Positions 1,998 through 24,469 of a stretch of DNA of 34,328 bases are shown piece after piece (the stretch's first letter is position 1; each line of letters starts with the position of its first letter). A model generated the notes under the pieces. It was given only the letters and a program-made list of their open reading frames with translations. It had not been told where the DNA came from and ran no database searches. The stretch is taken from positions 1 to 34,328 of the forward strand of contig NZ_JAPFHA010000033.1 in the NCBI RefSeq assembly GCF_026586805.1, written 5' to 3'. The stretch comes from Niveibacterium sp. 24ML. Its GTDB lineage: Bacteria; Pseudomonadota; Gammaproteobacteria; Burkholderiales; Rhodocyclaceae. The translations under genes and the position numbers were made by a program.

Positions 1998-4429
1998 ATA
2001 TTTCGATCGTGGCTCCCTCTTCGGTCCCGTATGTGCACGGGGGGGCCGAGAATCTATGGCTTGGTTTGCAGCGCTATCTCATTGAAAACACGACCCATCA
2101 TTGCGAACTATTCAAGATCCCATCGCCAGAGGGCTCGGTCGAGGATATTGTTTCGTCGTACAGAAAGTTCTACAACTTTAACGTCGATCATTTTGATAGG
2201 GTTATCTCGACCAAGTATCCAGCATGGATGGTGAATCATCGCGATCATGTCGTCTATTTGCAGCACACTCTTAGGGGTCTGTACGACACGTATCACTTCT
2301 CCGGGAAGCCCTTGACACTGCCGGATGAGCCGCTCGTTTCCGAGGTGGTGCGTTGGATGACGCAAGTCGAGAATGGTTCAATTGCCCTGGAGAAGTTCTT
2401 TGATCTGCTCCAGAAGGCGCTTTCGCGCGAGGATGCAACTGCGCTTCGGGAGTTTCCGGGGGCCTTTTCTAGGGAGGTTGTGCGTTTCCTGGATCGACGG
2501 GGAATGCGTCAGGATAATATCAAGGGCTATTTTGCGATTTCGAGTACGGTGAGAAAGAGAGAGGGATATTTCCCTCCTGGAGCGGTCGTAGGTGTCATTC
2601 CCCACCCTCCTGCGCTATCTGGATATTATTGCAAGGAATATGACTATCTATTTACGACTAGCAGATTGGACGGACCAAAGCGCGTCGGCTTGATTATAGA
2701 GGCTATGCGCCATGTGAAGGCAAACATTCGCCTACTGATTGGTGGTAAAGGCCCAGATGAGGCTCGTTTGAAGGCGTTGGCGGGCGATGACCGGCGGATC
2801 GAATTCCTCGGTTATCTTAACGATGCAGACTTGCTAGACCACTATGCTAATGCGCTGGCAGTGCCTTTCGTACCTTACGATGAAGATTATGGCCTGATTA
2901 CTATCGAAGCGATGATGAGCGGGAAGCCGGTAATCACGACGACAGATTCAGGAGGCGTTGGCCAATTCGTGGTTAACCACGAAACCGGGCTCGCGGTCCC
3001 GCCAGATCCAATTGCATTGGCTCAAGCTATTGACTACGTTTGCAGCCATCGCGCGGAAGCCAGAAGAATGGGTGAGGGTGCCCGCCGACGCGTGTCTTCC
3101 ATTACGTGGGAGAGAGTCGCCGATGCGCTGATTGGTGAGTCATTGAAGGGTGCCCGGAGGGCGCTATTGCCCGCGGCGTCCTCTAGCGTGGCGCAAAGCG
3201 GCTTAGCCGGATCTGGCCGCAGGAAGATTGTGGTTGCTATCACTTTCCCAGTCTATCCTCCCCGCGGAGGTGGGCAGTCGCGAGTGTTCAATTTGTACCG
3301 GGAGTGGGCGCGATACTACGACGTTACTTTGGTGACCCTCACTGGGCACGAGGCGCCAGCTTTCGAGGGTGAGATTGCTCCTGGGCTTTTGGAAATCCGG
3401 GTTCCCAAGAGTGTCGCTCATCAGGATGCTGAGAATCGCTATTCCGCTTCTGTGGATTGGGTTCCAGTTACCGATATTGTTGCTTCAACGCTGATACACA
3501 TGACGCCGGCATACCTCGAGAAATTAGGGAATGTCTGCGCAGGAGCCGATATCGTGGTTGCCTGTCATCCCTATTTTGTCAAGGAACTCCGTGCTGCTTC
3601 GCCCCAAGCGGAGTTGTGGTTCGAAGCGCAGGATGTAGAGCTGACCATTAAACGGAGCATACTGCCAAAACGTCCGGCTTCGGATGCGCTTCTTGAAATG
3701 GTACGTAATAATGAGGCTGAGGCGTGGAGCGCAGCCAGCGTGGTATTTGTTTGCGCTCAGCCGGATCTGAAAGAGCTTGAGCGAATCTACGGACCAAGTG
3801 CAGCCAAGCAGGTTGTTGTGCCGAATGGCTTTGCTGCAGACGAGGTCGTATTCACCCCTCCTGCGTTACGTCAAAGGACCAAGGCGCAGCTTGGCCTAGA
3901 AGGACGTCCGACAGTCGTATTTATGGGGAGTTGGCATGGTCCGAATCTCGAAGCGGCGGAGCGGGTTATCGCGTATGCAGAGCACCTTTCGGCGGTTACG
4001 TTCCTTATCATTGGTAGTGCCTGTTCAGCATTTGAGAACAGAGTTGTTCCGGAAAACGTGCGTTTCCTTGGGGTGCTAGACGAACAGGAAAAGCAAGTCG
4101 CACTCTCTGCAGCAGACTTGGCAGTCAATCCGATGACGGCCGGTTCGGGGAGTAACCTAAAGATGTTCGACTATATGGCGGCGGGAGTCCCGGTGCTAAC
4201 GACCCGATTCGGGGTTAGAGGCATTGCGGCGACGAGTTCTTTGCATTATCTCGAGGCCGACGTCGACCGTTTCGTGCCTATGATCACCGCCTTTTTTGTC
4301 GAGTCTTCTCTAGATGACATTCAGGAACTGGCGAGAAGTGCGTCAAACTTGGTTCGTTCAAAATACTCTTGGGAGTCCATTTCTCGTTGCTTTATGAATG
4401 ACCTTGACCGACTGGCTGTGTCGAATTAA
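1994..4429 (+). CDS. Two-domain glycosyltransferase (GT4-GT4 fusion)
   Basis: 811 residues, about twice the usual length of a GT-B enzyme. Domain 1 (~1-390) is a paralogue of the preceding protein, with the HGGAEN loop near residue 16 and E-x7-E at Glu297/Glu305 (EDYGLITIE) followed by SGKPVITTTDSGG. Domain 2 begins at ~409 after a short Ala/Ser-rich linker with a new N-terminal Rossmann strand and PPRGGGQSR loop. It ends with AGSGSNLKMFDYMAAG, the donor-binding region of Stp1-like GT4 proteins. Such fusions can make two successive linkages. The start overlaps the upstream stop by ATGA. A run of seven G lies at 2039-2045. Substrates are unknown; the family assignment is secure. Confidence 0.88.
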   Translation: MNISIVAPSSVPYVHGGAENLWLGLQRYLIENTTHHCELFKIPSPEGSVEDIVSSYRKFYNFNVDHFDRVISTKYPAWMVNHRDHVVYLQHTLRGLYDTYHFSGKPLTLPDEPLVSEVVRWMTQVENGSIALEKFFDLLQKALSREDATALREFPGAFSREVVRFLDRRGMRQDNIKGYFAISSTVRKREGYFPPGAVVGVIPHPPALSGYYCKEYDYLFTTSRLDGPKRVGLIIEAMRHVKANIRLLIGGKGPDEARLKALAGDDRRIEFLGYLNDADLLDHYANALAVPFVPYDEDYGLITIEAMMSGKPVITTTDSGGVGQFVVNHETGLAVPPDPIALAQAIDYVCSHRAEARRMGEGARRRVSSITWERVADALIGESLKGARRALLPAASSSVAQSGLAGSGRRKIVVAITFPVYPPRGGGQSRVFNLYREWARYYDVTLVTLTGHEAPAFEGEIAPGLLEIRVPKSVAHQDAENRYSASVDWVPVTDIVASTLIHMTPAYLEKLGNVCAGADIVVACHPYFVKELRAASPQAELWFEAQDVELTIKRSILPKRPASDALLEMVRNNEAEAWSAASVVFVCAQPDLKELERIYGPSAAKQVVVPNGFAADEVVFTPPALRQRTKAQLGLEGRPTVVFMGSWHGPNLEAAERVIAYAEHLSAVTFLIIGSACSAFENRVVPENVRFLGVLDEQEKQVALSAADLAVNPMTAGSGSNLKMFDYMAAGVPVLTTRFGVRGIAATSSLHYLEADVDRFVPMITAFFVESSLDDIQELARSASNLVRSKYSWESISRCFMNDLDRLAVSN

Positions 4430-6599
4430 TCCGGCTTCGATTGGATCTTGGTTCGCGTTTGGCTTTGTGCCATTTTTATTGCTGTTGAAAGAGCGAATGG
4501 ACTTTAAAAAGTTTTTTGACGGGAAAGAGTGGGGTGTGCTATTTCGTCGGGAGGACGTTACCTGGACGGCATTTCTCCTTTTCTTCATTGTGATAGTCTG
4601 GTGTTGGGTTGCTGGAAGGACGACGCTTGGGGCTTGGCTGACGCCGATCTCATATAGTGAAGACACTCTTTTGGCTTTGGCTAATGCTAAGGCATATATG
4701 GACGGAGATGTCCATCTAGTCGTATTGAAGTTAGTGCAACATCTGAATTCGCCATTTGCCGCCAATTGGAACGACTGGCCAATTGCTGAGGAGTTCATAT
4801 ACTTCTCGTTGGGGATGTTGGGAAGGGTGTTTGGGATATTTGCGGCAGCCAATTTGCTCGTTCTGTCCTGTCATCTTCTGGCCGGGTGGTCATTTTGGCT
4901 TGTTAGTCGGCTTTTGGGCGTTGGTCGCGAGTACGCATTTTCTGGCGCGATCGCTTATGCCTTTTCACACTACTTGTTTGCAAGGGGGCTGTCTCACTTA
5001 ACGCTCTCGACTTATTGGCACTTGCCGTTAGCGTGCTTGGTAAGTTGGTGGGTTTGGGATCGCCAGGCGATGGGATTTTCAAGTCGGCGGTGGTCTTTTT
5101 CAGTAGGCGTCTCACTTATTGTCGGTGCGCTTAATCCCTACTATGCATGGATGTATATCCAATTCGTTGGGTTTGCCCTTCTAAAGCGGCTAGTTTGCTT
5201 TGAACGTAGGGCCGCTTTGGAGCCGCTGTTCCTAATTCTTGCGACGATTGGAGTGTTTGTCCTGTTTAACTTGGACACATTCTATTATCAAATCGTCAAT
5301 GGAGGGAATCCGGCGGCGGTCTCTAGAAGCCTTGCAGGGCTTGAGATCTACGGCCTGAAGTTGCCTGAATTATTCCTGCCTCCTTCCCATCGTTGGGATT
5401 GGCTGGCTGGTTTTGCTCAAGCCAATTACTACACTCCAACGTTCATAAAAGGTGAGCTTGGATCTCCATATCTTGGGATTTTTGGGATATCAGGGTTTGT
5501 CACCTTGGTTTTGTTTGGACTATATTGTCTGTTCCGAGCGCAGAGTGAAAAGATACCGGTTGAGTGGTGGCAAGTCCTTTGGGTTGTTTTGTATTCGCTA
5601 ATCGGCGGAGTGAACCTGCTTGTTGGTTCTGCGGGTTTTGTGCTATTTCGAGGTACAAATCGATATGGCATTTTCATCTTGACTATTGTTCTCATATACT
5701 TTGTGAGATTTTTGACAAAGCACTGCGCTGAAAGGGGCGCGAGGGCATTTGCATTGGTGTTAGTGCCGGTGATTCTTTGGGATCAGCTTCCCATGAATTC
5801 GGGGGCGGACTCGATGCCAGTGGTGTCTAATGCCGTGGCGGCTGATCGAGCCTTCGCAGAGAGGTTGGAGAGTCGGACTTTTCCTGGGGCGATGGTGTTT
5901 CAACTTCCCGTGATGCAGTATCCGGAAGTTCCGCCGGTACTTGGTATGAAGGATTACGAGCATTTTAGACCCTATCTATTTACGAAGTCACTGAGGTACT
6001 CTTACGGTACCAATAAAGGACGGTCTGATGCGGCGTGGCAGAGTGAGGTGGCTGCGCTTCCTGTTAACGAAATGATAGCGCGCTTGGAGCGATATGGATT
6101 TGCTGCCGTCTATCTAAATAAAAAGGGCTATTCCGATGGCGGCGCAAGTCTGATTGCGGCTATGTCCTCAGCCGGACGGGCCGTCGTTGCGGAGAGTGAG
6201 GAGTTGATTGCGTTTTCTCTTCAGCCGGCGAGTCGGCCAGTGCTGCCCATGTCAACGTCTTTTGGTTCGGGCTGGTCCAGTCCGGAGGTTGGGCACCGCT
6301 GGGCGGAGAGTCGAAAGGCCGAGATAGTTGTTCTTAATCCGTCCAAGGAAGAATTACACGGAACCTTGGAGGTTGGATTGAGGGGGCTCCAAAAGCAAAC
6401 GATTGGGGTTTCTGTTAATGGGGTGGTGAAAGACAATGTTTCGCTGGACGGAAACGAAGTCACCATTTCTATGGTGCTAGAATTCCAACCTGGTGCTAAT
6501 ACTATTCTGTTCTCGTCGGATGTTACCCCGGCGCCGCCGGGGAATGGCGACCCGAGAAGTTTGGCATTTGATGTTTTCGGTCTAAAGATTTCTTACTAG
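4398..6599 (+). CDS. Large polytopic membrane protein, GT-C-like glycosyltransferase candidate
   Basis: 733 residues if the ATG at 4398 is used, which overlaps the upstream gene by 32 bp. An in-frame ATG at 4497 (MDFKKFFDG) has a GAAAGAG 3 nt upstream and is an alternative start. About ten to twelve hydrophobic segments fill residues ~12-460; the last ~230 residues are soluble and probably periplasmic. The first large loop contains an acidic stretch ([11 protein letters not shown], with DGD shortly after), where GT-C enzymes keep catalytic Asp/Glu. GT-C proteins use polyprenyl-phosphate sugars in the periplasm, and the GtrA/GtrB pair at 12601-14005 could supply such a donor. I do not recognise a named family; an oligosaccharide polymerase or a YfhO-like protein are alternatives. 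Base composition is visibly more AT-rich than the backbone. Confidence 0.75.
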
Positions 6600-6612
6600 T
6601 TCAGGTGTCGTG

Positions 6613-7383
6613 ATGAAAGCCGTTATTCTCGCAGGAGGGCTGGGTACCCGCATTTCGGAAGAGTCGGTAGTCCGCCCTAAGCCGATGATCGAAATCGGGG
6701 GTAAGCCAATTCTTTGGCATATCATGAAGATTTACTCGTCTCACGGAATCAACGATTTCGTGGTGTGCTGCGGATATAAGGGGTATGTGATCAAGGAGTA
6801 TTTTGCGAACTACTTCTTGCACATGTCGGACGTTACATTCGACATGCATCACAACAAGATGGAGGTTCATCACCGCCATGCTGAGCCGTGGCGGGTGACT
6901 CTGGTTGATACCGGCGAGCAGACCATGACTGGGGGGCGGCTCAAGCGCGTTGCTGAGCATGTGGGCACAGAAGACTTCTGCATGACCTATGGCGACGGTG
7001 TGTCGGATGTGGATATCACATCTCTGCTGGCGTTCCATCGTCATCATGGAAAGCAGGCGACAGTAACGGCAACCCAGCCACCCGGACGCTACGGCGCCCT
7101 TGATCTCGATGGTTCGACAGTTCGCAGCTTCCTTGAGAAACCTGTAGGTGATGGGGGGTGGATCAATGGTGGATTTTTCGTGTTGTCTCCGAAGGTGCTC
7201 AAGCTAATTGAGGGCGACGAGACGATCTGGGAACGTACTCCAATGGAGCGTCTTGCCGCGAGCGGCGAGTTGGAAGCGTATTTTCACAAAGGGTTCTGGC
7301 AACCCATGGATACGCTCCGCGATAAGGTTGGTTTGGAAAGCCTGTGGGAGTCTGGGCGAGCGCCGTGGAAGGTTTGGCAATGA
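6613..7383 (+). CDS. rfbF: Glucose-1-phosphate cytidylyltransferase
   Basis: 256 residues, the normal size for RfbF/DdhA. It makes CDP-glucose from glucose-1-phosphate and CTP, the first step to CDP-3,6-dideoxyhexoses, in the cytoplasm. The N-terminus carries the nucleotidyltransferase signature ([13 protein letters not shown], ~6-18) with [16 protein letters not shown] after it, both highly typical of RfbF. Its substrate-loop regions ([26 protein letters not shown]) also match the family. I chose the ATG at 6613, which has AGGTG 5 nt upstream; a GTG three bases earlier is also open. It lies 13 nt after the membrane-protein gene and its stop overlaps the rfbG start, so it is the head of the rfbFGH block. 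Confidence 0.96.
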
Positions 7384-8480
7384 ATCCTGAATTCTGGCGG
7401 GGGCGCCGGGTATTTCTGACCGGGCATACGGGGTTCAAAGGTAGCTGGCTCTCACTCTGGTTGGAGTCCTTGGGGGCTAGTGTGACGGGCTATGCGTTGC
7501 CAGCGCCGACTGCCCCTTCTTTGTTTAACGTTGCGAAAGTCGCGCAGGGGATGACGTCGTCGGTTATCGGTGATGTACGCGATCTCGATGCGTTAACCGC
7601 CGCTATGCGGGAGGCGCGACCCGAAGTTGTCATTCATATGGCTGCTCAGGCGCTCGTCCGGTATTCGTACGATCATCCAGTCGAGACGTATGCGACCAAC
7701 GTGATGGGAACGGTGAACTTTCTCGAGGCCGTGCGCCGTGTTGGCGGCGTGAGGTCGATAGTTGTGGTAACGAGTGATAAGTGTTACGAGAATCACGAAT
7801 GGCCTTGGGGGTATCGCGAGAACGAGCCCATGGGGGGGCATGACCCTTATAGCAACAGTAAGGGGTGCGCTGAATTGGTCGCGTCGGCCTATCGTGATTC
7901 CTTCTTTCCGCCTGCTCGTTGGGGTGAACATGGAGTTGCGCTCGCTTCCGGCCGAGCAGGTAATGTGATCGGCGGTGGCGATTGGGCGCACGATCGCCTA
8001 ATTCCAGACATCCTTCGCGGAATCGAGGCAAACGACGAGGTCGTAATCCGCAGCCCGGGGGCTATTCGCCCTTGGCAGCATGTGCTCGAACCGCTTTCGG
8101 GGTACTTGTTGTTAGCCGAACGCCTTTATCGAGACGGTGTTGCGTTCGCGGAGGGTTGGAATTTTGGCCCGCACGACGAGGACGCAAGGCCGGTTTCGTG
8201 GATCGTTGACAACATGGTGTCGCTGTGGGGCCCTTCGGCACGCTATCGCATTGACGCACCAGCTAATGCTCCGCACGAAGCAAATTACCTCAAACTTGAT
8301 TGTTCGAAAGCGCGTCAGCGCCTGGACTGGCATCCGCGGTGGCGTCTGCATTCAACACTGAAGCGCATCTGCGAATGGCAACGGGCTTGGCTTGACGGTG
8401 GCGATATGCGCGCTTTCACGTTGCACCAGATTGACGCTTACACAAACACTTTGGCAGATCTGCACCAGAAAGATAGATGA
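7380..8480 (+). CDS. rfbG: CDP-glucose 4,6-dehydratase
   Basis: 366 residues, an extended short-chain dehydrogenase that converts CDP-glucose to CDP-4-keto-6-deoxyglucose using bound NAD. Visible are the glycine-rich nucleotide site ([12 protein letters not shown], ~15-26), the TSDKCYEN segment with the catalytic Thr region, and the Y-x3-K pair in [21 protein letters not shown] and GWNFGP are family landmarks. The ATG at 7380 overlaps the rfbF stop (ATGA); upstream in-frame codons would add a spurious extension. A seven-G run (7832-7838) lies just before the Y-x3-K motif and encodes part of PMGGHDPY. Confidence 0.96.
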
Positions 8481-9814
8481 CTACGATGCAAGATAGAAAC
8501 GAAAAACTCGCAGCGCTTCGTCGCGACATCGCCAAGTTGGTCGATGAGTTCGCTGGAATCCAGTACGAGCCGCGCGCTTTTGTACCTGGCGAAAACATTG
8601 TGCCTCCCTCCGGCAAGGTAATCGACGGCGAAGAGCTTAAGTTGATGGTCGAGGCGTCTCTTGACGGTTGGTTGACGACGGGTCGCTTTAATGAGGAGTT
8701 CGAGAAGCGCTTGGCCGCTTTTATCGGCGTTAGTCATCTGATAACCACTAACTCCGGTTCTTCAGCCAATTTGCTGGCGTTTGCGACATTGACTTCACAC
8801 AAATTGGGTGAGCGAGCGATCCGGCCGGGCGACGAGGTCATCGGTGTTGCTGCAGGCTTCCCGACGACGGTGAACCCGATTCTTCAATTTGGCGCGGTAC
8901 CGGTGTTTGTGGATGTAGAACTCGGCACCTACAACATCGACGTGACGAAGCTTGAAGCCGCAGTCACACCAAAAACCAAGGCCATCATGTTGGCCCACAC
9001 CCTTGGCAACCCTTACAACCTCTCTGCCGTGATGGCTGTCTGTGATAAGTACGGCCTGTGGCTCATCGAGGACTGCTGCGATGCCCTGGGCTCGACCTAT
9101 GACGGAAAACTCGTCGGCACGTTTGGTGACATCGGTACGTTGAGCTTCTACCCCGCGCACCACATTACGATGGGTGAGGGCGGGGCCGTCTTCACGAATG
9201 ACGCTGGTCTTAAGCAAATTGCCGAATCTTTCCGAGATTGGGGGCGTGACTGCTATTGCCCGCCCGGCAAGGACAACACCTGCAAAAAGCGCTTCTGTTG
9301 GAAGCTTGGCAATCTGCCGGAGGGGTATGACCACAAATACACGTACTCCCACCTCGGGTACAACCTGAAGATTACCGACATGCAGGCAGCATGCGCGCTT
9401 GCGCAGTTGGATAAGGCCGAGGGTTTTATTCAGGCGCGCAAGGACAATTTTGCCTATTTGAAAGACCGCCTTTCGTCCTGTGAGGAGTTTCTGATTCTGC
9501 CGCGTGCGACGGAGAATTCAGATCCATCGTGGTTTGGATTCCCGATAACGCTGCGTGAGACCGCGGGTGTCAGCCGAGTTGATCTTCTGCAGTATCTCGA
9601 TCAGCACAAGATCGGCACGCGCCTTCTGTTTGCCGGCAACCTGACACGGCAGCCGTACATGATCGGCCGCAACTTCCGCGTTAGTGGCGAACTGACCAAC
9701 ACCGATATCGTCATGAATAACACTTTCTGGGTCGGGGTGTATCCGGGACTCCAGCGTGACATGCTCGATTTCGTCGTTGAGAAAATCGAGACATTCCTCG
9801 GCATCGGTCTTTGA
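8477..9814 (+). CDS. rfbH: CDP-4-dehydro-6-deoxyglucose 3-dehydratase (E1, PMP/iron-sulfur enzyme)
   Basis: 445 residues, matching RfbH/DdhC/E1. It removes the C3 hydroxyl of CDP-4-keto-6-deoxyglucose with pyridoxamine phosphate and a [2Fe-2S] cluster. The usual PLP lysine is replaced by histidine in [14 protein letters not shown] (His228), the hallmark of this subgroup. The cluster motif C-x57-C-x1-C-x7-C is present as Cys201, Cys259, Cys261 and Cys269. All this is directly visible and agrees with the family. The start overlaps the rfbG stop by ATGA. The electron-donating reductase RfbI (E3) that normally partners E1 is not encoded next to it or elsewhere in the window. Confidence 0.97.
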
Positions 9815-9822
9815 GTATAGTG

Positions 9823-10872
9823 ATGACTACCAACGGCTGTGTCGGGAACGACGACCTTGAATTCGCCTTCGGACACGCGGGGGGGGTGTGGGATTCATTC
9901 CGCAACGCTCGCATATTCCTAACTGGCGGGACGGGTTTCGTCGGGAAATGGTTGCTGGAAACGCTGCTATACGCGAACGATCGGCTAGCACTCAATGTCA
10001 CTATAGTGACCCTCACGCGCGATCAAGAGGCCTTTCGTGCGGGCTTTCCTTGGCTAGCGAGCCATCCGGCTGTGACCTTACATCGTGGCGACGTGCGGAC
10101 CTTCGAGGCACCTGAGGGGCGTTTTTCGCACGTCGTGCACGCCGCGACCGACGTGGTTCAGGCTCCCTCGCCGCTCGATACGTTTGACGTTACGGTAAGT
10201 GGAACCCGCCGCGTACTTGAGTTTGCTGTTTCTGCTGGAGCGGCGGAATTTCTTCTTGTCAGTTCGGGCGCCGTATATGGTCCCCAGGCTCCCGCGCTTC
10301 GACTCGTGGCAGAGGGCTGCTGTAATGCGCCTGATTCGTTGGACGTTCGCTCTGCATACGGTTTGGGGAAGCGTGGAGCGGAGTGGTTGGCAACAGCATA
10401 CGGGAAAGCACACGGAATGCGCGTGCGTACTGCCCGGTGTTTCGCGTTCGTGGGCCCCTTGCTGGCGCTGGACAAGCACTTTGCCGTGGGCAATTTCATC
10501 GGAGATGCGCTTGCTGGGCGGGCAATCCAGATCGGCGGTGACGGAACCACGATCCGCTCTTACCTTTATGCTGCGGACCTTGCTACGTGGCTTTGGACGA
10601 TCCTTGTGCGAGGTACTCCTGGAGTTGCGTACAACGTTGGGTCTGACGAAGCAATCTCGATTGCTGATCTGGCTCGTCGAGTGGTGGCGCAGGTGAATCC
10701 GGCGCTCGAAATCCGTATCGCGCGTGAGCCACAATCTGGAAGTCTTCCGGATCGTTACGTTCCGGATGTCGGATTGGCGAGGCGTGAGCTCGGGCTCGAC
10801 GTATGGACCGGACTTGACTCCGCAATTCTCAGGACGGTGGCGTGGCATCTGCAGGAGCGTAATCCCCAATGA
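9823..10872 (+). CDS. NAD(P)-dependent sugar epimerase/reductase of the extended SDR family
   Basis: 349 residues. The Rossmann motif is FLTGGTGFVGKW (~28-39), there is an SSGAVYG segment, and the catalytic Y-x3-K is in SAYGLGKRGAE. Its position directly after rfbH suggests it reduces a CDP-3,6-dideoxy-4-ketohexose or a branched derivative of it. Abequose/paratose synthases (RfbJ/RfbS) and the yersiniose side-chain reductase YerF are the functional models; sequence alone does not choose between them. The start is uncertain: ATG 9823 is preferred, with GTG 9820 and a TTG at 9811 that overlaps the rfbH stop also possible. An eight-G tract (9879-9886) near the 5' end, encoding HAGGVW, could slip. 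Confidence 0.85.
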   Translation: MTTNGCVGNDDLEFAFGHAGGVWDSFRNARIFLTGGTGFVGKWLLETLLYANDRLALNVTIVTLTRDQEAFRAGFPWLASHPAVTLHRGDVRTFEAPEGRFSHVVHAATDVVQAPSPLDTFDVTVSGTRRVLEFAVSAGAAEFLLVSSGAVYGPQAPALRLVAEGCCNAPDSLDVRSAYGLGKRGAEWLATAYGKAHGMRVRTARCFAFVGPLLALDKHFAVGNFIGDALAGRAIQIGGDGTTIRSYLYAADLATWLWTILVRGTPGVAYNVGSDEAISIADLARRVVAQVNPALEIRIAREPQSGSLPDRYVPDVGLARRELGLDVWTGLDSAILRTVAWHLQERNPQ

Positions 10873-11693
10873 CGAGGACGACTCATATGGACTCAATTGA
10901 ACTGGCTAGAAGTGTCAGGCTGACTGCGCTGGATCTGTGTCACTCCAAGCGGGCATCGCATATCGGCGGCGCCTATTCAGTCGCCGACATTCTGGCGGTG
11001 TTGTATGCGGATGTCCTAAACATCTCGCCTTTGACGGTCGACAATCCGGAGCGAGATCGAGTTTTCTACAGCAAAGGGCACGCTTGCACGGCTCTCTATG
11101 CTGTTCTTAACGCCTGTGGATATCTCAAAGGGTATGACTTGCTGAAAGAGTTTACAGTCAACGGCTCGTACTTTACCTCGCATGTCAATCATCAAATTCC
11201 TGGCGTGGAACTCTCCACCGGAAGCCTCGGGCATGCGCTAGGTGTCGCATGTGGCACCGCGCTCGCGCTAAAGCGCAAAGGGAACGCTGGCAGTGTTTTC
11301 ACTATTGTCAGTGACGGTGAGCTCGATGAGGGGTCGAACTGGGAGAGTCTGCTGGCCGGAGCGCACCACGCGCTCGATAATATGATTCTGATTATTGACT
11401 ACAACAAGATCCAAAGCTTCGGCAGCGTCGAGGAGGTGTTGGCCTTGGAGCCCCTCGCAGACAAATTGCGCGCATTCCGTTGGCAGGTGACGGAGGTTGA
11501 TGGCCATAACCATGATGAGTTGCGAAAAACTTTGGCTGAGTCATCGCTTGCGCGCAACGGCCTGCCGAAGGCGATTATTGCGCACACGGTGAAGGGCAAG
11601 GGCGTCTCTTTTATGGAAGGCCAACTCGCTTGGCATTACAAATCGCCGAATGACGCGGACTATACGCGCGCTCGAGCGGAACTGGAGGCTTGA
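10869..11693 (+). CDS. Transketolase, N-terminal (ThDP pyrophosphate-binding) subunit
   Basis: 274 residues, the size of the N-terminal half of a split transketolase. The His pocket (SKGHACTALY) and the ThDP/Mg motif are present, although the usual GDG reads SDG (Ser148-Asp149-Gly150 in SDGELDEGSNWE), with the Asn of DYNKIQ completing the motif. TGSLGHALGVA is another strong landmark. The ATG at 10869 overlaps the reductase stop; an ATG at 10887 with GAGGA upstream is an alternative. Housekeeping transketolase is normally one ~660-residue chain, so this two-gene form in a CDP-sugar operon points to a dedicated role: moving a two-carbon ketol unit, plausibly onto the 4-keto sugar (inference). 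Confidence 0.92.
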   Translation: MTRTTHMDSIELARSVRLTALDLCHSKRASHIGGAYSVADILAVLYADVLNISPLTVDNPERDRVFYSKGHACTALYAVLNACGYLKGYDLLKEFTVNGSYFTSHVNHQIPGVELSTGSLGHALGVACGTALALKRKGNAGSVFTIVSDGELDEGSNWESLLAGAHHALDNMILIIDYNKIQSFGSVEEVLALEPLADKLRAFRWQVTEVDGHNHDELRKTLAESSLARNGLPKAIIAHTVKGKGVSFMEGQLAWHYKSPNDADYTRARAELEA

Positions 11694-11696
11694 TAG

Positions 11697-12608
11697 ATGC
11701 GCAATACTTTCATCAATAGCTTGTGCGAGCTTGCGCGCGCTCACGATGATATCTTCTTGATGTGCGGCGATCTTGGCTATTCAGTGCTCGAGCCATTCGC
11801 GGAGCAGTTTCCCGAGCGGTTCCTTAACGCCGGCATTGCTGAGCAGAACATGACCGAAATGGCCGTCGGTCTCGCGCGCGAAGGCTACAACGTGTTTACC
11901 TATTCGATTGGTAATTTCCCGACGCTGCGCTGCATGGAGCAGATTCGCTACGATGTCTGTTATCACGATGCAAATGTGAAGATCATCGCAGTAGGAGGAG
12001 GGTATGCATATGGCGCGCTCGGGGTTTCGCATCACACGACCGAGGACATTGCGATGCTTCGGTCGATTCCGAATATGCTGGTGACTGCTCCTGCGGATCC
12101 GCACGAAGCTCGGTCAATTGCCAAGTACCTTGTGTCACATCGTGGCCCCGCATACGTTCGTCTCAACAAGGCTGGCGAGCCTATGATCCATCGGGGGGAA
12201 GTCGACGTGCAACCCGGCCGCCTTATTACCGTACGTGAAGGCGCCGGAGTGGCCGTGTTGACGACGGGCGCTGTACTTGACGGCGCAATTCGGCAGATTG
12301 ATGAGGCTGGTCGGCCTTGGGCCGTCTATAGTTGTCCGATGCTTTCCGCCTTCGATACCGAAACCATGTGCTCGCTCGCTCGTCGATTCGATTGCATTGT
12401 GACAATGGAGGAGCATCAACTCGCGGGTGGTTTCGGTAGTGCGGTCCTTGAGTGCTTGTCGGACTTGCGCGCTCAGGGGCGGATCGCATCGATGCCTATC
12501 GTTCGTCGTGTTGGAATCCCGAACAAGTTCATCGGATATGCTGGGACTCAGGAGTACCTGCGCATGAAAGCCGGGGTCGACCTTGGGCGAATACTGGAAA
12601 ATGCCTGA
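11697..12608 (+). CDS. Transketolase, C-terminal (pyrimidine-binding) subunit
   Basis: 303 residues, starting 3 nt after its partner's stop, so the two are certainly co-expressed. It holds the pyrimidine-binding domain with the cofactor-activating glutamate (Glu49 in NAGIAEQNM) and the C-terminal transketolase domain (VAVLTTGAVLDGAI, then MEEHQLAGGFGSAVLE). Segments GGGYAYGALGVSHHTTEDIAMLR and AYVRL match split transketolases and DXP-synthase-like proteins. Together with 10869-11693 it should form an alpha2-beta2 ThDP enzyme in the cytoplasm. The stop overlaps the gtrA-like start. No lesion is visible, so the enzyme should be active. Confidence 0.92.
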   Translation: MRNTFINSLCELARAHDDIFLMCGDLGYSVLEPFAEQFPERFLNAGIAEQNMTEMAVGLAREGYNVFTYSIGNFPTLRCMEQIRYDVCYHDANVKIIAVGGGYAYGALGVSHHTTEDIAMLRSIPNMLVTAPADPHEARSIAKYLVSHRGPAYVRLNKAGEPMIHRGEVDVQPGRLITVREGAGVAVLTTGAVLDGAIRQIDEAGRPWAVYSCPMLSAFDTETMCSLARRFDCIVTMEEHQLAGGFGSAVLECLSDLRAQGRIASMPIVRRVGIPNKFIGYAGTQEYLRMKAGVDLGRILENA

Positions 12609-13017
12609 AATCAAAACGCTCGCGACAGCGACATGGAGTGGTTGGCTCGGCCGCGAGAGGGAGCGTTTTGCACGATTCCTCGTTGTCGGTGCCGTTAACG
12701 CGGCATTCGGTTATGGCATCTATGCTGCGCTCGTCTTCTTTGGGGTTGACTATAAGGCGGCTCTGTTCATTTCTACCTGCGCTGGCGTGGCTTTCAACTT
12801 CAAGACAACTGGCAGTTTTGTTTTCGCAAACCGGCAGCCGTCTCGGATATTCCGATTTGTAGGCGTTTACGTCGTCACCTATCTTGTTAACGCCGCTGGA
12901 GTGGGCTTTCTGGCGAGGTTCGGGATGGGGGCTTATCTCGCTGGTGCGCTGCTCATTCTTCCTGTTGCGATCCTAGCTTTTCTCTTGAACCGGAATTTTG
13001 TCTTTAATGATGCGTAA
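12601..13017 (+). CDS. GtrA-family membrane protein, polyprenyl-phosphate-sugar flippase candidate
   Basis: 138 residues with four hydrophobic segments and the GtrA landmarks FLVVGAVNAAFGYGIY near residue 26, FNFKTTGSFVF in the middle and FLLNRNFVF at the end. GtrA proteins are thought to flip undecaprenyl-phosphate-linked sugars to the periplasm. The ATG at 12601 overlaps the transketolase stop (TGA at 12606-12608); a start at 12583 lies deeper in the upstream gene and is less likely. It overlaps the following GT2 gene, forming the usual gtrA-gtrB pair. Confidence 0.9.
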   Translation: MPEIKTLATATWSGWLGRERERFARFLVVGAVNAAFGYGIYAALVFFGVDYKAALFISTCAGVAFNFKTTGSFVFANRQPSRIFRFVGVYVVTYLVNAAGVGFLARFGMGAYLAGALLILPVAILAFLLNRNFVFNDA

Positions 13018-14005
13018 ACTAATTAGCATCGTCACGCCTTGCTATAACGAGGAAGGCAACGTTGACGAACTCTGCGCGCGTGTTGCAGATGTCATGGCCT
13101 ATATGCCGTACGATTATGAGCATATCCTTATCGACAACCGGTCGACTGACGGCACCGTCGCCAAGATCAGGGAACTTGCTGCGCGCGACTCGCATATCAA
13201 ATTGATAATCAATGCGCGCAATTTCGGGCACATCCGCTCCCCCTACTACGCGATGCTGCAATCGAGTGGCGATGCCTGCGTGCTGATTGCTGCGGACTTG
13301 CAGGATCCGCCTGAGATGATTCCAGAATTCCTCGCGAAGTGGGAGGCTGGTTTTAAGACTGTGTTGGCAGTTAAGCCAGAGAGCGACGAGTCATCGTTGA
13401 TGTTCTTTGTGCGTAAATGCTACTACCGCCTAGTCACGCGCATTTCGGAAGTGCCTCTAGTTCAGAATGCCACCGGTTCCGGACTGTTCGATCGGGAGGT
13501 TATTGATGTTCTGCGTCAGATTCGAGACCCCTATCCCTATTTTCGAGGACTGGTTTGCGAGGTAGGACTTGACATTACAACGGTGCCGTTCAAGCAACCA
13601 CGCCGCAAGCGCGGCTTGACTAAGAACAACTTCTACACGCTTTATGACATCGCGATGCTTGGTATCACCAATCACTCGAAGGTGCCTTTGCGAATAATGA
13701 CCATGACCGGGTTTGCGCTCTCAATCATGAGTTTGGTTATTGCGCTCGCCTTTCTCGTTGCTAAGATTTTCTTCTGGAATCTCTTTCAGCTTGGTATGGC
13801 GCCAGTCTTGGTTGGATTGTTCTTCTTCGGTGGCATTCAGATGTTCTTCATTGGGCTTCTGGGTGAATACGTTGGTGCAATTCATACTCAGGTACGTAAC
13901 ATGCCGCTCGTAGTCGAGTCGGAGAGAGTGAACTTCGAACGGCGCGGCACGACGCCGGGCGAATCCGTTGCGGCGCTTGAAAAGCGGGATCATGCTCGCG
14001 CTTAA
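13007..14005 (+). CDS. GtrB/DPM1-like polyprenyl-phosphate glycosyltransferase (GT2)
   Basis: 332 residues. The N-terminal GT-A domain starts with SIVTPCYNEEGNVDE and has the DNRSTDGT and AADLQDPPE motifs (DXD-type metal/nucleotide site). Two C-terminal membrane helices lie at ~225-290 (nt ~13690-13870), ending in FIGLLGEYVG. This is the layout of GtrB, ArnC and DPM1, which move a sugar from a nucleotide donor to undecaprenyl phosphate. GtrB proper uses UDP-glucose; here the gene follows directly after the CDP-sugar and transketolase genes, so the donor may be the CDP-linked product (inference). ATG 13007 and ATG 13010 are both possible; both overlap the gtrA-like stop. Confidence 0.93.
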   Translation: MMRKLISIVTPCYNEEGNVDELCARVADVMAYMPYDYEHILIDNRSTDGTVAKIRELAARDSHIKLIINARNFGHIRSPYYAMLQSSGDACVLIAADLQDPPEMIPEFLAKWEAGFKTVLAVKPESDESSLMFFVRKCYYRLVTRISEVPLVQNATGSGLFDREVIDVLRQIRDPYPYFRGLVCEVGLDITTVPFKQPRRKRGLTKNNFYTLYDIAMLGITNHSKVPLRIMTMTGFALSIMSLVIALAFLVAKIFFWNLFQLGMAPVLVGLFFFGGIQMFFIGLLGEYVGAIHTQVRNMPLVVESERVNFERRGTTPGESVAALEKRDHARA

Positions 14006-21813: not shown

Positions 21814-22350
21814 ATGGCACTTAAATCGACGATCTTCAAGCTCGATCTGCAGATTTCGGACATGGATCGCGGCTACTACGGGAACCATTCACTGACCATC
21901 GCCCGCCACCCCTCCGAGACCGATGAGCGGATGATGATGCGGGTGTTGGCCTTCGCGATGTTTGCCGATGAGGGCCTGGTGTTCTGCAAGGGCTTGTCGT
22001 CAGACGACGAACCCGATTTGTGGCAGAAAGACCTGACCGACGCGATTCAGACGTGGATTGAAGTCGGCTTGCCAGACGAGCGTGGGCTCCGGCAGGCGAG
22101 TGGTCGTTCGGATCAGGTGGTCTTGCTCGCTTACGGCGGGCGCACGGTGGATATCTGGTGGCAGAAGAACCGCGCGGCGTGCATGAAGCTGCAAGCGCTC
22201 AAGGTGTATCGTGTGCCGGAAGATGTGGCCGAAGCCTTGACCGCGATGGCGGTGCGCACCATGCAGATCCAGTGCAGCGTGCAGGACGGCGAGTTCTGGT
22301 TCTCAGACGGCGAGCGTAGCGCGCATTTTCGCCCGCTGCTGTTGGACTAA
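21814..22350 (+). CDS. yaeQ: YaeQ family protein
   Basis: 178 residues, close to E. coli YaeQ. It begins MALKSTIFK and contains ARHPSETDERMMMRVLAFA, GLSSDDEPDLW and YGGRTVDIWW, which are clear family landmarks. YaeQ has a PD-(D/E)xK nuclease-like fold but its cellular role is not firmly known. It follows rdgC with a 5-nt gap. Its stop codon (22348-22350) overlaps the stop of the convergent diguanylate cyclase gene by two bases, so no separate terminator fits between them. Confidence 0.95.
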   Translation: MALKSTIFKLDLQISDMDRGYYGNHSLTIARHPSETDERMMMRVLAFAMFADEGLVFCKGLSSDDEPDLWQKDLTDAIQTWIEVGLPDERGLRQASGRSDQVVLLAYGGRTVDIWWQKNRAACMKLQALKVYRVPEDVAEALTAMAVRTMQIQCSVQDGEFWFSDGERSAHFRPLLLD

Positions 22351-24365
22351 GCGCTTCCCGGGGAGTCGCCGGGGATCATGGCGAGGATGACGCGCCCGTC
22401 GCGCAACGCGTCTTCGAAGCTCCCTTCGATCATGTCCAGTTCGGCTTCGGTACGCGCATCGATACTCCGGATGCCGCACGCCCGGTTTCGCCCTTGCGCC
22501 TTGGCCACATAGAGCGCCATATCGACCTGATTGATGCCGCGCTCCCAGTCGATCGGGAGCGCTGCTGGTGGCAAGGGGAAGCTGGCGAAACCGATCGAGA
22601 TGGTGATGTTCATCGAAAGCTCGCCGAAGCGCACGGGCTTGCTGCTGATTGCGTGCAGCAGGCGGCCGGCGAGGCGATCGAATTGTTCGATCGGCATGGC
22701 GCCGACGGCGATCAGGAATTCTTCGCCGCCCCAGCGAACCACCAGATCGCTGTCTCGCATCGTATCGAGCAGGCGCTGCGCAACCGCGGTGATTACGGCG
22801 TCGCCGGCTGCGTGGCCATGGGTGTCGTTCACCCGCTTGAAGTGATCGATGTCCAGCAGGATCAGGCCGCCCGCAAAGCCTTCATTGCCACTGCGGGCAT
22901 GCATCGCCTCCTGGAAGTAGCGGCGATTGAAGAGCCCGGTCAGGGCGTCGCGTTCGCCGCGCACCTTGAGCATGCGATTGTTTTCGGCGAGTTTCTGGTT
23001 CGCTTCGCGCACGCGCCGGTAGAGCAGGCCAACGGCAAGCAGGCCGGTGAGCATCAAGCCGGCTGCGAGCAGCCAGACCCTCTGCTGGAGCGAGCGATTC
23101 TGCAACTCCGCGCTCTTGAGCGCGTTGTCCCGGTTCAGGAGCTCGATCTCGCGTTGCTTCTTCTCGGATTGGTAGCGCGCATCAAGCTCAAGCAACGCGC
23201 CTTTCCTGCTTGCCTCAGCCAGCGCGCGGGACGCACGACGTTCGCGGTGGTAGGCGTTGATGGCGTGCTTGTAGTCGCCTGCGGCCTCGAGTGCTTCGCC
23301 GTATTCGGCGAGCAAACCGGCATACATCGAATGTGAGTCGAGCCGCATTGCGAGGTCGAGTGCTTCTTCAACGTTCTTGCGCCCTTGCTCAAGCAGTCCC
23401 AGCCTGATCTCGGCTTGGCCTGCATTGGCAAGGGCGACGATCAGGCCGTGCGGGTCGGAGATCCGGCGGGCAATCACGATCGCTTCGTTGGTGATCTGCA
23501 AGGCGTCGCGGTAGCGCCCGGCTTTCAGGTAGGTGTCGCCAAGGTTGATCAGCATGGTTTCGATACGCTCCGGGTTGCCGGCCTGGCGGGCAAAACCCAG
23601 CGCGTTCTGTGCTGCAACAAGCTCCAGGGGGCGGTCTTTCTGCGCCTGGGCGAGCTTCGATCGGGTGTCCCAAAACTGCGCCAGGAGTGCCGGCTCGTCG
23701 ATGCTGGCGGCAAGCTTGCTCGCGATCGTGGTTTCATCCGCCGCCCTGACAAGTTCGCCAGCTTCGATGAACAGCGTGGCAATGCTGTCATGGGCGCGGA
23801 ACTGGCGCGGTTTGGATCTGAGCCGTACCGCGATCGCCAGCGCATCGCGGTAGGCGGCAAGCGCATCCGCTTGGCGTCCAAGATCGAACAGCAGCGATCC
23901 GCGAATCATCTGCAAGCGATAGCGCTGCCGCAAGTCGGCATCCGCCGGCAAGGCGTCATGCGCCTCGTTGGCAAGTTCGAGCGCGCGTGTCAGATCGCCG
24001 TGTGCGCGCACCGCGAAGCCGCGCACGATCAGGGCTGCTGCCTTGGCCTCGGGCGTGGCCAAGGCATCAAGCGCTGCAGCGGTGGCGTCGGCGGCATCAA
24101 GCTTGTTGGCGCTTGCTTGACTGGTTCCCTTCAGGGTCAGGAACGCAATGCGCGACGCTTGATCCGGCGCCGTCTTGAGCAGTGGATCAAGGCTATCGAT
24201 TGCCGCATCGGGGTTGCTTCGCGCCTGGGCTTCGATTGCGTCGACCCGCGAAGCAAGGTCGGGATCGAGTTCGGCCGCTGTTGCTGCGGGCGAAAGCGCG
24301 ATCCAGACAAAGGCGAAGGTGCAACGCACCAGGGCGCCCATGCTCCGGCTTGATGGAAGAGGCAT
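22347..24365 (-). CDS. Periplasmic-TPR diguanylate cyclase (GGDEF), with inhibitory I-site
   Basis: 672 residues from the ATG at 24365; an ATG at 24341 is an alternative, and both keep the signal peptide (LVRCTFAFVWIALSPAATAA). A helical region of degenerate TPR-like repeats fills ~35-390, then a coiled coil, one membrane helix (~425-448, WLLAAGLMLTGLLAVGLLYRR) and a cytoplasmic GGDEF domain. The active site reads GGEEF (residues ~546-550), with RDALTGLFNRRYF and DIDHFKRVNDTHGH. RDSD sits exactly five residues before GGEEF, which is a complete allosteric I-site (RxxD). It should make cyclic-di-GMP in response to a periplasmic signal sensed by the repeats. It lies 104 bp downstream of its paralogue. 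Confidence 0.92.
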   Translation of the reverse strand: MPLPSSRSMGALVRCTFAFVWIALSPAATAAELDPDLASRVDAIEAQARSNPDAAIDSLDPLLKTAPDQASRIAFLTLKGTSQASANKLDAADATAAALDALATPEAKAAALIVRGFAVRAHGDLTRALELANEAHDALPADADLRQRYRLQMIRGSLLFDLGRQADALAAYRDALAIAVRLRSKPRQFRAHDSIATLFIEAGELVRAADETTIASKLAASIDEPALLAQFWDTRSKLAQAQKDRPLELVAAQNALGFARQAGNPERIETMLINLGDTYLKAGRYRDALQITNEAIVIARRISDPHGLIVALANAGQAEIRLGLLEQGRKNVEEALDLAMRLDSHSMYAGLLAEYGEALEAAGDYKHAINAYHRERRASRALAEASRKGALLELDARYQSEKKQREIELLNRDNALKSAELQNRSLQQRVWLLAAGLMLTGLLAVGLLYRRVREANQKLAENNRMLKVRGERDALTGLFNRRYFQEAMHARSGNEGFAGGLILLDIDHFKRVNDTHGHAAGDAVITAVAQRLLDTMRDSDLVVRWGGEEFLIAVGAMPIEQFDRLAGRLLHAISSKPVRFGELSMNITISIGFASFPLPPAALPIDWERGINQVDMALYVAKAQGRNRACGIRSIDARTEAELDMIEGSFEDALRDGRVILAMIPGDSPGSA

Positions 24366-24380
24366 TCGACGTTGTCCCAG

Positions 24381-24446
24381 CGGCGCGAATGCGCCGTCTG
24401 AGCTCTTTACGGCCAGCCTTGCTGGAACTTGATCCCCCGTAAGGGG
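24381..24446 (-). promoter_or_regulatory. Three consecutive small hairpins in the leader of the second cyclase gene
   Basis: In the 104-bp gap between the two cyclase genes, read on the - strand, there are CCCC-TTAC-GGGG (24446-24435), CCAGC-AAG-GCTGG (24425-24413) and CGGCGC-ATTC-GCGCCG (24396-24381), in that order before the start at 24365. No T-run follows any of them. This could be an attenuator, an mRNA-processing site or an RNA control element. The conserved cores of known cyclic-di-GMP riboswitches were not found. Confidence 0.4.
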
Positions 24447-24469
24447 CTGGGCGCACGACGGTGCCCGAG

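Follow-up and report, generated by a model that had tools for sequence, protein, structure and literature searches.

In the yersiniose-type module the genes rfbF, rfbG and rfbH are combined with the gene for YerE, an enzyme dependent on thiamine diphosphate (ThDP), and with a reductase gene; according to a 2025 review, YerE belongs to the decarboxylase superfamily and takes pyruvate as its donor (PMC12247030). We describe here a comparable locus on a contig of Niveibacterium sp. 24ML (NZ_JAPFHA010000033.1, positions 1 to 34,328, forward strand), the whole stretch of 34,328 nucleotides being called the window below. Likened by description, the two share the pathway to cytidine diphosphate (CDP)-4-keto-3,6-dideoxyhexose, a slot for a ThDP enzyme after rfbH and an adjoining short-chain dehydrogenase/reductase (SDR), but differ in that the window carries a transketolase (TK) encoded by two genes. 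Our proposal is that this split TK acts in the YerE slot and that a branched sugar is probably the outcome.

Miharamycin and amipurimycin are nucleoside antibiotics of Streptomyces. For both, a TK has been proposed to transfer a hydroxyacetyl unit to a keto sugar, the miharamycin enzyme being a split-gene TK, and gene-cluster mining has added 13 further TK candidates, all split-gene and all streptomycete; the review, by Bjarnesen and colleagues, describes the function of split-gene TKs in keto-sugar branching as still pending and the candidates as uncharacterised in vitro (PMC12247030). Compared by description, these enzymes resemble that of the window in their proposed ketosugar acceptor, but are not set in a CDP-3,6-dideoxyhexose or glycan cluster. 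The alpha-ketoacid dehydrogenase-type enzymes of aldgamycin, kosinostatin and kibdelomycin also carry out ThDP-dependent C2 branching of a ketosugar, as proposed here, but according to the review they take pyruvate, belong to another ThDP superfamily and lie in antibiotic clusters (PMC12247030).

The nearest solved relative by sequence of both halves of the window enzyme, and the fold match of its C half, is the split TK of Carboxydothermus hydrogenoformans (6yak, 6yaj), which keeps the acceptor-site His and Asp, whereas the window TK has neither. A chemical precedent is offered by the breakdown of apiose, in which a split TK cleaves a tertiary alcohol; a literature search for confirmation of this came up empty. 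Among the matches listed, no literature was found that links a split TK to rfbFGH, which is weak evidence of absence as subscription journals are thinly covered. The first-pass annotation of this locus had presented it as a solution different from yersiniose. The placing of a TK where YerE would stand survives our analysis, but the use of a split-gene TK on a keto sugar had already been proposed for miharamycin and amipurimycin, as the review relates (PMC12247030). Because of that proposal, and with no paper among the matches listed that joins a split TK to rfbFGH, the novelty would, on the best reading of the sequences, be that clusters for surface glycans, in several phyla, use an enzyme of the transketolase type for YerE-type branching.

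A CDP-dideoxyhexose pathway coupled to a split transketolase

The six genes in question form a single tightly coupled run on the + strand (6610-12608), all of them open frames:

6610..7383, + strand: rfbF, glucose-1-phosphate cytidylyltransferase (NCBIfam TIGR02623, 484 bits, cut-off 300; GTG start, with an ATG at 6613)
7380..8480, + strand: rfbG, CDP-glucose 4,6-dehydratase (TIGR02622, 505 bits, cut-off 278; ATG at 7380, within the end of rfbF)
8477..9814, + strand: rfbH, CDP-4-keto-6-deoxyglucose 3-dehydratase (E1; PRK15407, 758 bits, cut-off 423)
9811..10872, + strand: SDR reductase, probably acting on a side-chain ketone, or else at C4 (Pfam Epimerase; TTG at 9811 or ATG at 9823)
10869..11693, + strand: N half of the split TK (TK-N), ThDP pyrophosphate/Mg domain (PF00456; 6yak, E 6e-55)
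11697..12608, + strand: C half of the split TK (TK-C), pyrimidine and C-terminal domains (PF02779/PF02780; 6yaj, E 9e-47)

Neighbouring genes overlap by 4 nt at the rfbF/rfbG, rfbG/rfbH, rfbH/SDR and SDR/TK-N junctions, and a gap of 3 nt separates TK-N from TK-C; together with the family matches, this bears out the earlier description of six genes joined without real gaps. All components of a YerE-type module, namely rfbF, rfbG, rfbH, a ThDP carboligase and an SDR, thus adjoin one another in the window. RfbH has His229 inside a YPAHH motif and a Cys cluster, which we take to be marks of a 3-dehydratase and not of an aminotransferase. A candidate for its ferredoxin-type reductase partner (E3) is an unlinked protein with Fer2, FAD_binding_6 and NAD_binding_1 domains, encoded elsewhere in the genome (G000:C9, locus L050) and matching no equivalog above cut-off.

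On balance we favour the view that the product of the six genes would be a 3,6-dideoxyhexose, activated by CDP and branched at C4 with carbon, formed through ketol transfer by the TK and the action of the SDR. RfbF would form CDP-glucose, RfbG would convert this to CDP-4-keto-6-deoxyglucose, and RfbH, with the ferredoxin-type reductase encoded elsewhere, would yield CDP-4-keto-3,6-dideoxyglucose. A ketose phosphate would then donate a two-carbon ketol (glycoloyl) unit, which the ThDP of the split TK would pass on to the C4 ketone, creating a tertiary alcohol, and the SDR would reduce the new side-chain ketone to give a 4-C-(1,2-dihydroxyethyl) branch. Finally, a GT2 glycosyltransferase and a GtrA-type protein encoded directly downstream would probably load the sugar on polyprenyl phosphate, flip it and add it to a surface glycan. 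The identities and coupling of the genes can be read from the sequence, as can the exchange, at another locus, of a YerE-like gene for a related TK pair and the missing acceptor-site His and Asp, while the donor, the product and the steps assigned to the SDR and to the GT2/GtrA pair are what we infer from them.

Replacement of a YerE-like enzyme by a split transketolase

That a TK works here in YerE's place is supported by the exchange of the two enzymes within one genus, by their lack of co-occurrence, by a reductase clade shared between the two kinds of locus and by an altered acceptor site. Because of these lines of comparison, which include Gly and Leu at the positions of TktA His461 and Asp469, and because the rfb-linked TKs fall in one clade and the genome has two full-length TKs elsewhere, we are fairly confident that the window TK would act at the C4 ketone of CDP-4-keto-3,6-dideoxyglucose. 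The His100 kept by the window enzyme speaks further for the favoured pathway as a whole.

The window RfbH was searched at E 1e-120 or better in three overlapping draws of genomes, each with the window's own genome, and was present in 11 of 369 genomes of the class, 37 of 398 of the phylum and 57 of 297 of the family. The comparison set comprises 103 rfbH neighbourhoods from other genomes, which are interrelated, so that P values derived from them are rough; two of them, L036 and L047, were first chosen for their TKs and kept since the RfbH search also found both genomes. YerE-like (acetolactate-synthase-type) open reading frames (ORFs), defined by a hidden Markov model (HMM) built on 21 ORFs from these same loci, occur on the rfbH strand in 44 of the 103 loci and on either strand in 47. 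A linked split TK and a YerE-like ORF are found together in none of the 103 (P of zero overlap = 0.006 if the loci are independent). The same HMM detected no YerE-like ORF of at least 200 aa in the window, ruling out a hidden YerE there.

Two loci of one genus, L075 (genome G966) and L076 (G914), differ at just this point. Their identity is 94.3% over the kb that leads up to the junction and 92.4% over the one that follows; with both oriented by rfbH, it is 93.8% over a stretch of 3662 bp that closes with rfbH and 93.5% over the 2287 bp from the next SDR on. Between the rfbH stop and this SDR, L075 has one 611-aa ORF, which begins directly after the stop and whose best NCBIfam match is the acetolactate synthase large subunit (below cut-off); L076 has TK-N and TK-C, which start at the same point and stop just short of where this SDR begins. 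The 611-aa ORF has CDG instead of GDG, as is reported for JanthE in the review (PMC12247030). Kept across the swap are rfbFGH, the SDR (92%), GtrA (94%) and GT2 (95%). Judged by these alignments, the split TK of L076 stands in for the YerE-like enzyme with the other parts kept.

As a separate observation, L122 has two ORFs between rfbH and its SDRs that by eye resemble an acylating aldehyde dehydrogenase and a 4-hydroxy-2-oxo acid aldolase, and a short stretch like the former (again by eye) lies between the YerE-like ORF and the SDR of L075. A role of these extra ORFs in donor supply is possible.

Recurrence of the linkage

The first-pass annotation had put forward a count of rfbH neighbourhoods as a check on its reading. 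TK matches were seen in 9 of the 103 loci, and the TK pair stands beside rfb genes in at least eight of them (L036, L066, L070, L073, L076, L123, L142 and L151), a lower bound, as many of the loci end at contig ends. L036, from another genus of the family, reproduces the window's six-gene order gene for gene, and five loci (L070, L073, L076, L123 and L142) have the order rfbH-TKN-TKC-SDR. In L066 rfbH is followed by the TK pair and an aminotransferase-like ORF, and in L151 the pair lies upstream of rfbF. The ninth match, in L047, concerns a TK about 6 kb from rfbH that is part of a different, heptose-like cluster.

A scan of genome contigs by TK-N alignment yielded 596 relatives, among the best 80 of which rfbG or rfbH lies near the TK in eight. 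One of these, in Janthinobacterium sp. CG3 (L161), has a six-gene order identical to that of the window, and the other seven are from metagenome-assembled genomes (two Bacteroidota, two Acidobacteria, two Alphaproteobacteria and one Lachnospiraceae), both alphaproteobacterial ones having no rfbH in the stretch examined. The linkage is more than chance would give, because the six-gene order recurs (L036, L161) and rfb-linked TKs turn up in 8 of 103 rfbH loci and among 8 of 80 TK-N relatives. The window's genus does not carry the module throughout: rfbH was found in two of six other genomes (G001, G006), neither of which has a window-type TK directly after it. A single TK broken by a frameshift was considered as an explanation of the two ORFs and rejected, all eight linked homologues also being two ORFs.

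Active site and subfamily of the split transketolase

The Transketolase_N, Transket_pyr and Transketolase_C domains score above the Pfam cut-offs in the two window ORFs. The cofactor residues D149 and N179 of TK-N and E49 of TK-C are kept, in agreement with the initial description of a two-gene transketolase with conserved cofactor residues, and Ser replaces the first Gly of the GDG motif. We aligned 91 sequences, consisting of joined halves, E. coli TktA, the genome's two full-length TKs and other split TKs; eight of the best 80 relatives had no TK-C pair and so entered neither the residue comparison nor the tree.

All 17 rfb-linked TKs keep the residues equivalent to TktA Asp155, Asn185, Glu411, His26, His66, His261 and His473. 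The acceptor site, by comparison, has lost its His and Asp in the window enzyme. The position of TktA His461 is Gly in 17/17, that of Asp469 is Leu in 15/17 (Gln in L164, Asp in L173) and that of Arg520 is Lys in 15/17 (Arg in L164 and L181). The window enzyme has Gly100, Leu108 and Lys158 of TK-C at these three positions, and so departs from the canonical His461/Asp469/Arg520 set of pentose-phosphate TKs. At the position of TktA His100 the His is kept in the window and replaced by Leu in L036, L070, L073, L076 and L123. We take Asp469 to read the alpha-hydroxyl of the acceptor, His461 and Arg520 to help bind phosphate, and His100 to read the C1 hydroxyl of the ketol donor. The loss of Asp469 would fit the proposed acceptor, since this has no hydroxyl next to its ketone on the C3 side.

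Of the remaining 74 TKs in the alignment, 31 have retained His461 together with Asp469 (28 split, 3 full-length). The 28 split ones were picked as canonical for having both residues, which they therefore keep by definition; at TktA positions 118, 262, 432, 444 and 466 they mostly have Gln, Gly, Ser, Ser and Val, whereas the linked TKs have His, Tyr, Tyr, Asp and Tyr. The tree unites all 17 rfb-linked TKs in a single clade with 42 members (support 0.995), away from the split TKs with His461 and Asp469, and 39 of the 42 have Gly461. Among the best 80 of the 596 relatives, neighbours of nucleoside diphosphate (NDP)-sugar type occur at 18 of the 27 loci of this clade versus 0 of 53 others, and at 10 of 19 when the eight rfb-linked loci are left out. 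A model of the C half (predicted local distance difference test score, pLDDT, 82.7) has a fold like that of the split TK 6yaj, which accounts for the top four Foldseek matches; the model is of low confidence (pLDDT below 50) in the changed loop, residues 105-112, and at its C-terminal end.

Alternative donors and the role of the reductase

Several observations weigh against the ketol-transfer pathway proposed above. The TK of L076 belongs to a different subfamily branch from that of the window and lacks His100, so that the L075/L076 swap serves the window only as an analogy. Gly461 is also present in 22 of the 74 TKs without rfb linkage, and because members of the subfamily occur without rfbH (L164, L172) or without the rfb genes sought, membership does not fix the acceptor. 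The C half is near DXS, with 125.6 bits versus 137.2 for the best TK model, and DXS fills Foldseek ranks 5 to 50. DXS takes pyruvate, and donor specificity is not readable from the sequence. Among relatives of the window SDR, 13 of 36 lie in loci with neither ThDP enzyme in the stretch fetched, and ten of these 13 form a separate clade of SDRs after rfbH with no ThDP enzyme seen.

Pyruvate is the main rival donor, because the C half resembles DXS and the swapped loci keep their downstream enzymes. Here a TK-fold enzyme would take pyruvate at C4 to give an acetyl and then a 1-hydroxyethyl branch, that is, yersiniose via a different fold; that a related TK takes over from a YerE-like gene while reductase, GtrA and GT2 are kept could mean the same product, and the loss of His100 in the L076 branch would agree with this. 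Yet the N half scores 116 bits as a TK versus 27 as DXS, the closest structure for each half is a split TK, and the window branch keeps His100 together with a positive residue (Lys) at Arg520. We regard the pyruvate route as rather unlikely. If the TK does act at C4, a ketol donor has good probability, and a ketol donor combined with a dihydroxyethyl product is likely.

A second alternative turns on the SDR, which would reduce the C4 ketone itself to give a plain abequose- or paratose-type 3,6-dideoxyhexose, with the TK serving another step such as precursor supply. The SDR has no NCBIfam match above cut-off and no equivalog, PDB gave distant SDRs only, and we assigned its role from trees and context. 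Relatives at 35% identity or more occur in 36 of the 103 rfbH loci, 22 of them YerE-like and one with a TK (L036). Relatives placed directly after rfbH occur in loci with no ThDP enzyme seen in the stretch fetched, the group to which the other 13 belong, and this fits a C4 reductase; the tree label "no ThDP enzyme" reflects a same-strand count, and L112, L127 and L156 became YerE-like when both strands were counted. In L090, L100 and L108 the ORF after the SDR resembles, by eye, an ABC-transporter permease. The window SDR, however, groups not with the ten in their own clade but with those of L161 and L036, which have the same six-gene order (support 0.83). It also lies in a different clade from the SDRs that follow TK-C in L070, L073, L076, L123 and L142. 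These latter reductases belong to one clade of 11 together with those of the YerE-like loci L075, L133 and L134 and, counting both strands, L127 and L156; L122 too has an SDR of this clade, and no YerE-like ORF was found there. The 22 relatives in YerE-like loci, the full-length TKs elsewhere in the genome and the recurrence of TK-rfb linkage across phyla speak further against a plain dideoxyhexose, which we consider improbable. The window SDR could be a C4 reductase, but from its relatives it is probably a side-chain ketone reductase.

A third alternative is that the genes are neighbours by accident and that the split TK works in the ordinary pentose-phosphate pathway. Its TK domains and core cofactor residues might speak for this, but it is highly improbable in the face of the recurrent linkage and the gene swap, and an ordinary metabolic TK was rejected on the two full-length TKs in the genome and the lost acceptor residues.

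Neighbouring genes and surface polysaccharide setting

The ketol-transfer pathway that we prefer is flanked by further genes of possible relevance:

4398..6599, + strand: 733-aa membrane protein directly upstream of rfbF, possibly a GT-C-type transferase
12583..13017, + strand: GtrA-type membrane protein, which we propose flips the branched sugar in its lipid-linked form (PF04138)
12998..14005, + strand: GT2 that has hydrophobic segments at its C-terminal end and that we propose transfers the CDP-branched sugar to polyprenyl phosphate (PF00535)

The GtrA and GT2 genes (12583-14005), which the first-pass annotation did not mention, continue the six-gene run gaplessly. GtrA is kept beside the module in L070, L076 and L075, and the window GT2 is 71-76% identical to those of L070, L073 and L076. 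Matches to this GT2 at 50% identity or more occur in 11 of 55 loci with a ThDP enzyme versus 0 of 48 others (Fisher P = 0.0006); three identity limits were tried, the counts being 6/55 versus 0/48 at 60% and 14/55 versus 2/48 at 35%. This concentration of GT2 matches in ThDP-enzyme loci hints that GT2 and GtrA may handle the branched sugar. The 733-aa protein has seven hydrophobic segments in a simple scan and no family match in Pfam or NCBIfam. Beyond GT2 lie gmd, another SDR gene, two GT4 genes, a WbpM-like gene and a WcaJ-like gene, and the locus is a surface polysaccharide cluster. Further downstream, on the minus strand (22347-26521), the window has two TPR-GGDEF proteins in tandem.

Other loci with related split transketolases

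Related TKs are also found in other settings. In L066 (6527-10165) the enzyme after rfbH (truncated by the contig end), TKN and TKC is a LegC/PseC-like aminotransferase, and the branched product there may be aminated. L172 (6035-11694) and L164 (5272-11739) have rfbF, rfbG and TK without rfbH; a C-methyltransferase lies between rfbG and the TK in L172, which suggests a doubly branched 6-deoxy sugar as its product. TKs of the subfamily lie near DegT-type ORFs in L166, L169 and L231; L166 and L169 also have a WbpM-like dehydratase, a hint that the TK may act on uridine diphosphate (UDP)-ketosugars. In one genome (G018:C25; L036, L037) a distance of about 15 kb separates two split TK pairs, of which a single one is part of an rfbFGH run.

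The window's own genome has, besides its two full-length TKs, a second split TK on another contig (L045; G000:C67:136000-155900), clustered with a GHMP kinase, a nucleotidyltransferase, a HAD phosphatase, a B12-binding radical SAM enzyme and a DegT enzyme. This TK has Arg for TktA His26 and Ile for His100, and resembling loci are present in four same-genus genomes (L046-L049). The product of the cluster is possibly a higher-carbon sugar.

Implications for surface glycan biosynthesis

More tentatively, and with a chance that we put at somewhat under even, these TKs may represent a widespread subfamily of split enzymes, present in several phyla, that has lost the aldose-acceptor site and become dedicated to nucleotide-bound ketosugars, able to replace YerE-type lyases gene for gene and producing dihydroxyethyl-branched tertiary-alcohol surface sugars by ketol transfer. 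The locus and its relatives offer candidate enzymes for which the substrate is defined, together with a partner reductase and a short list of residues, and the swapped YerE-like locus serves as a natural control. If the proposal is true, members of the subfamily beside WbpM-like dehydratases, DegT enzymes or the C-methyltransferase would make further new branched sugars, and it predicts a class of bacterial surface branched sugars that would be made via a transketolase route.

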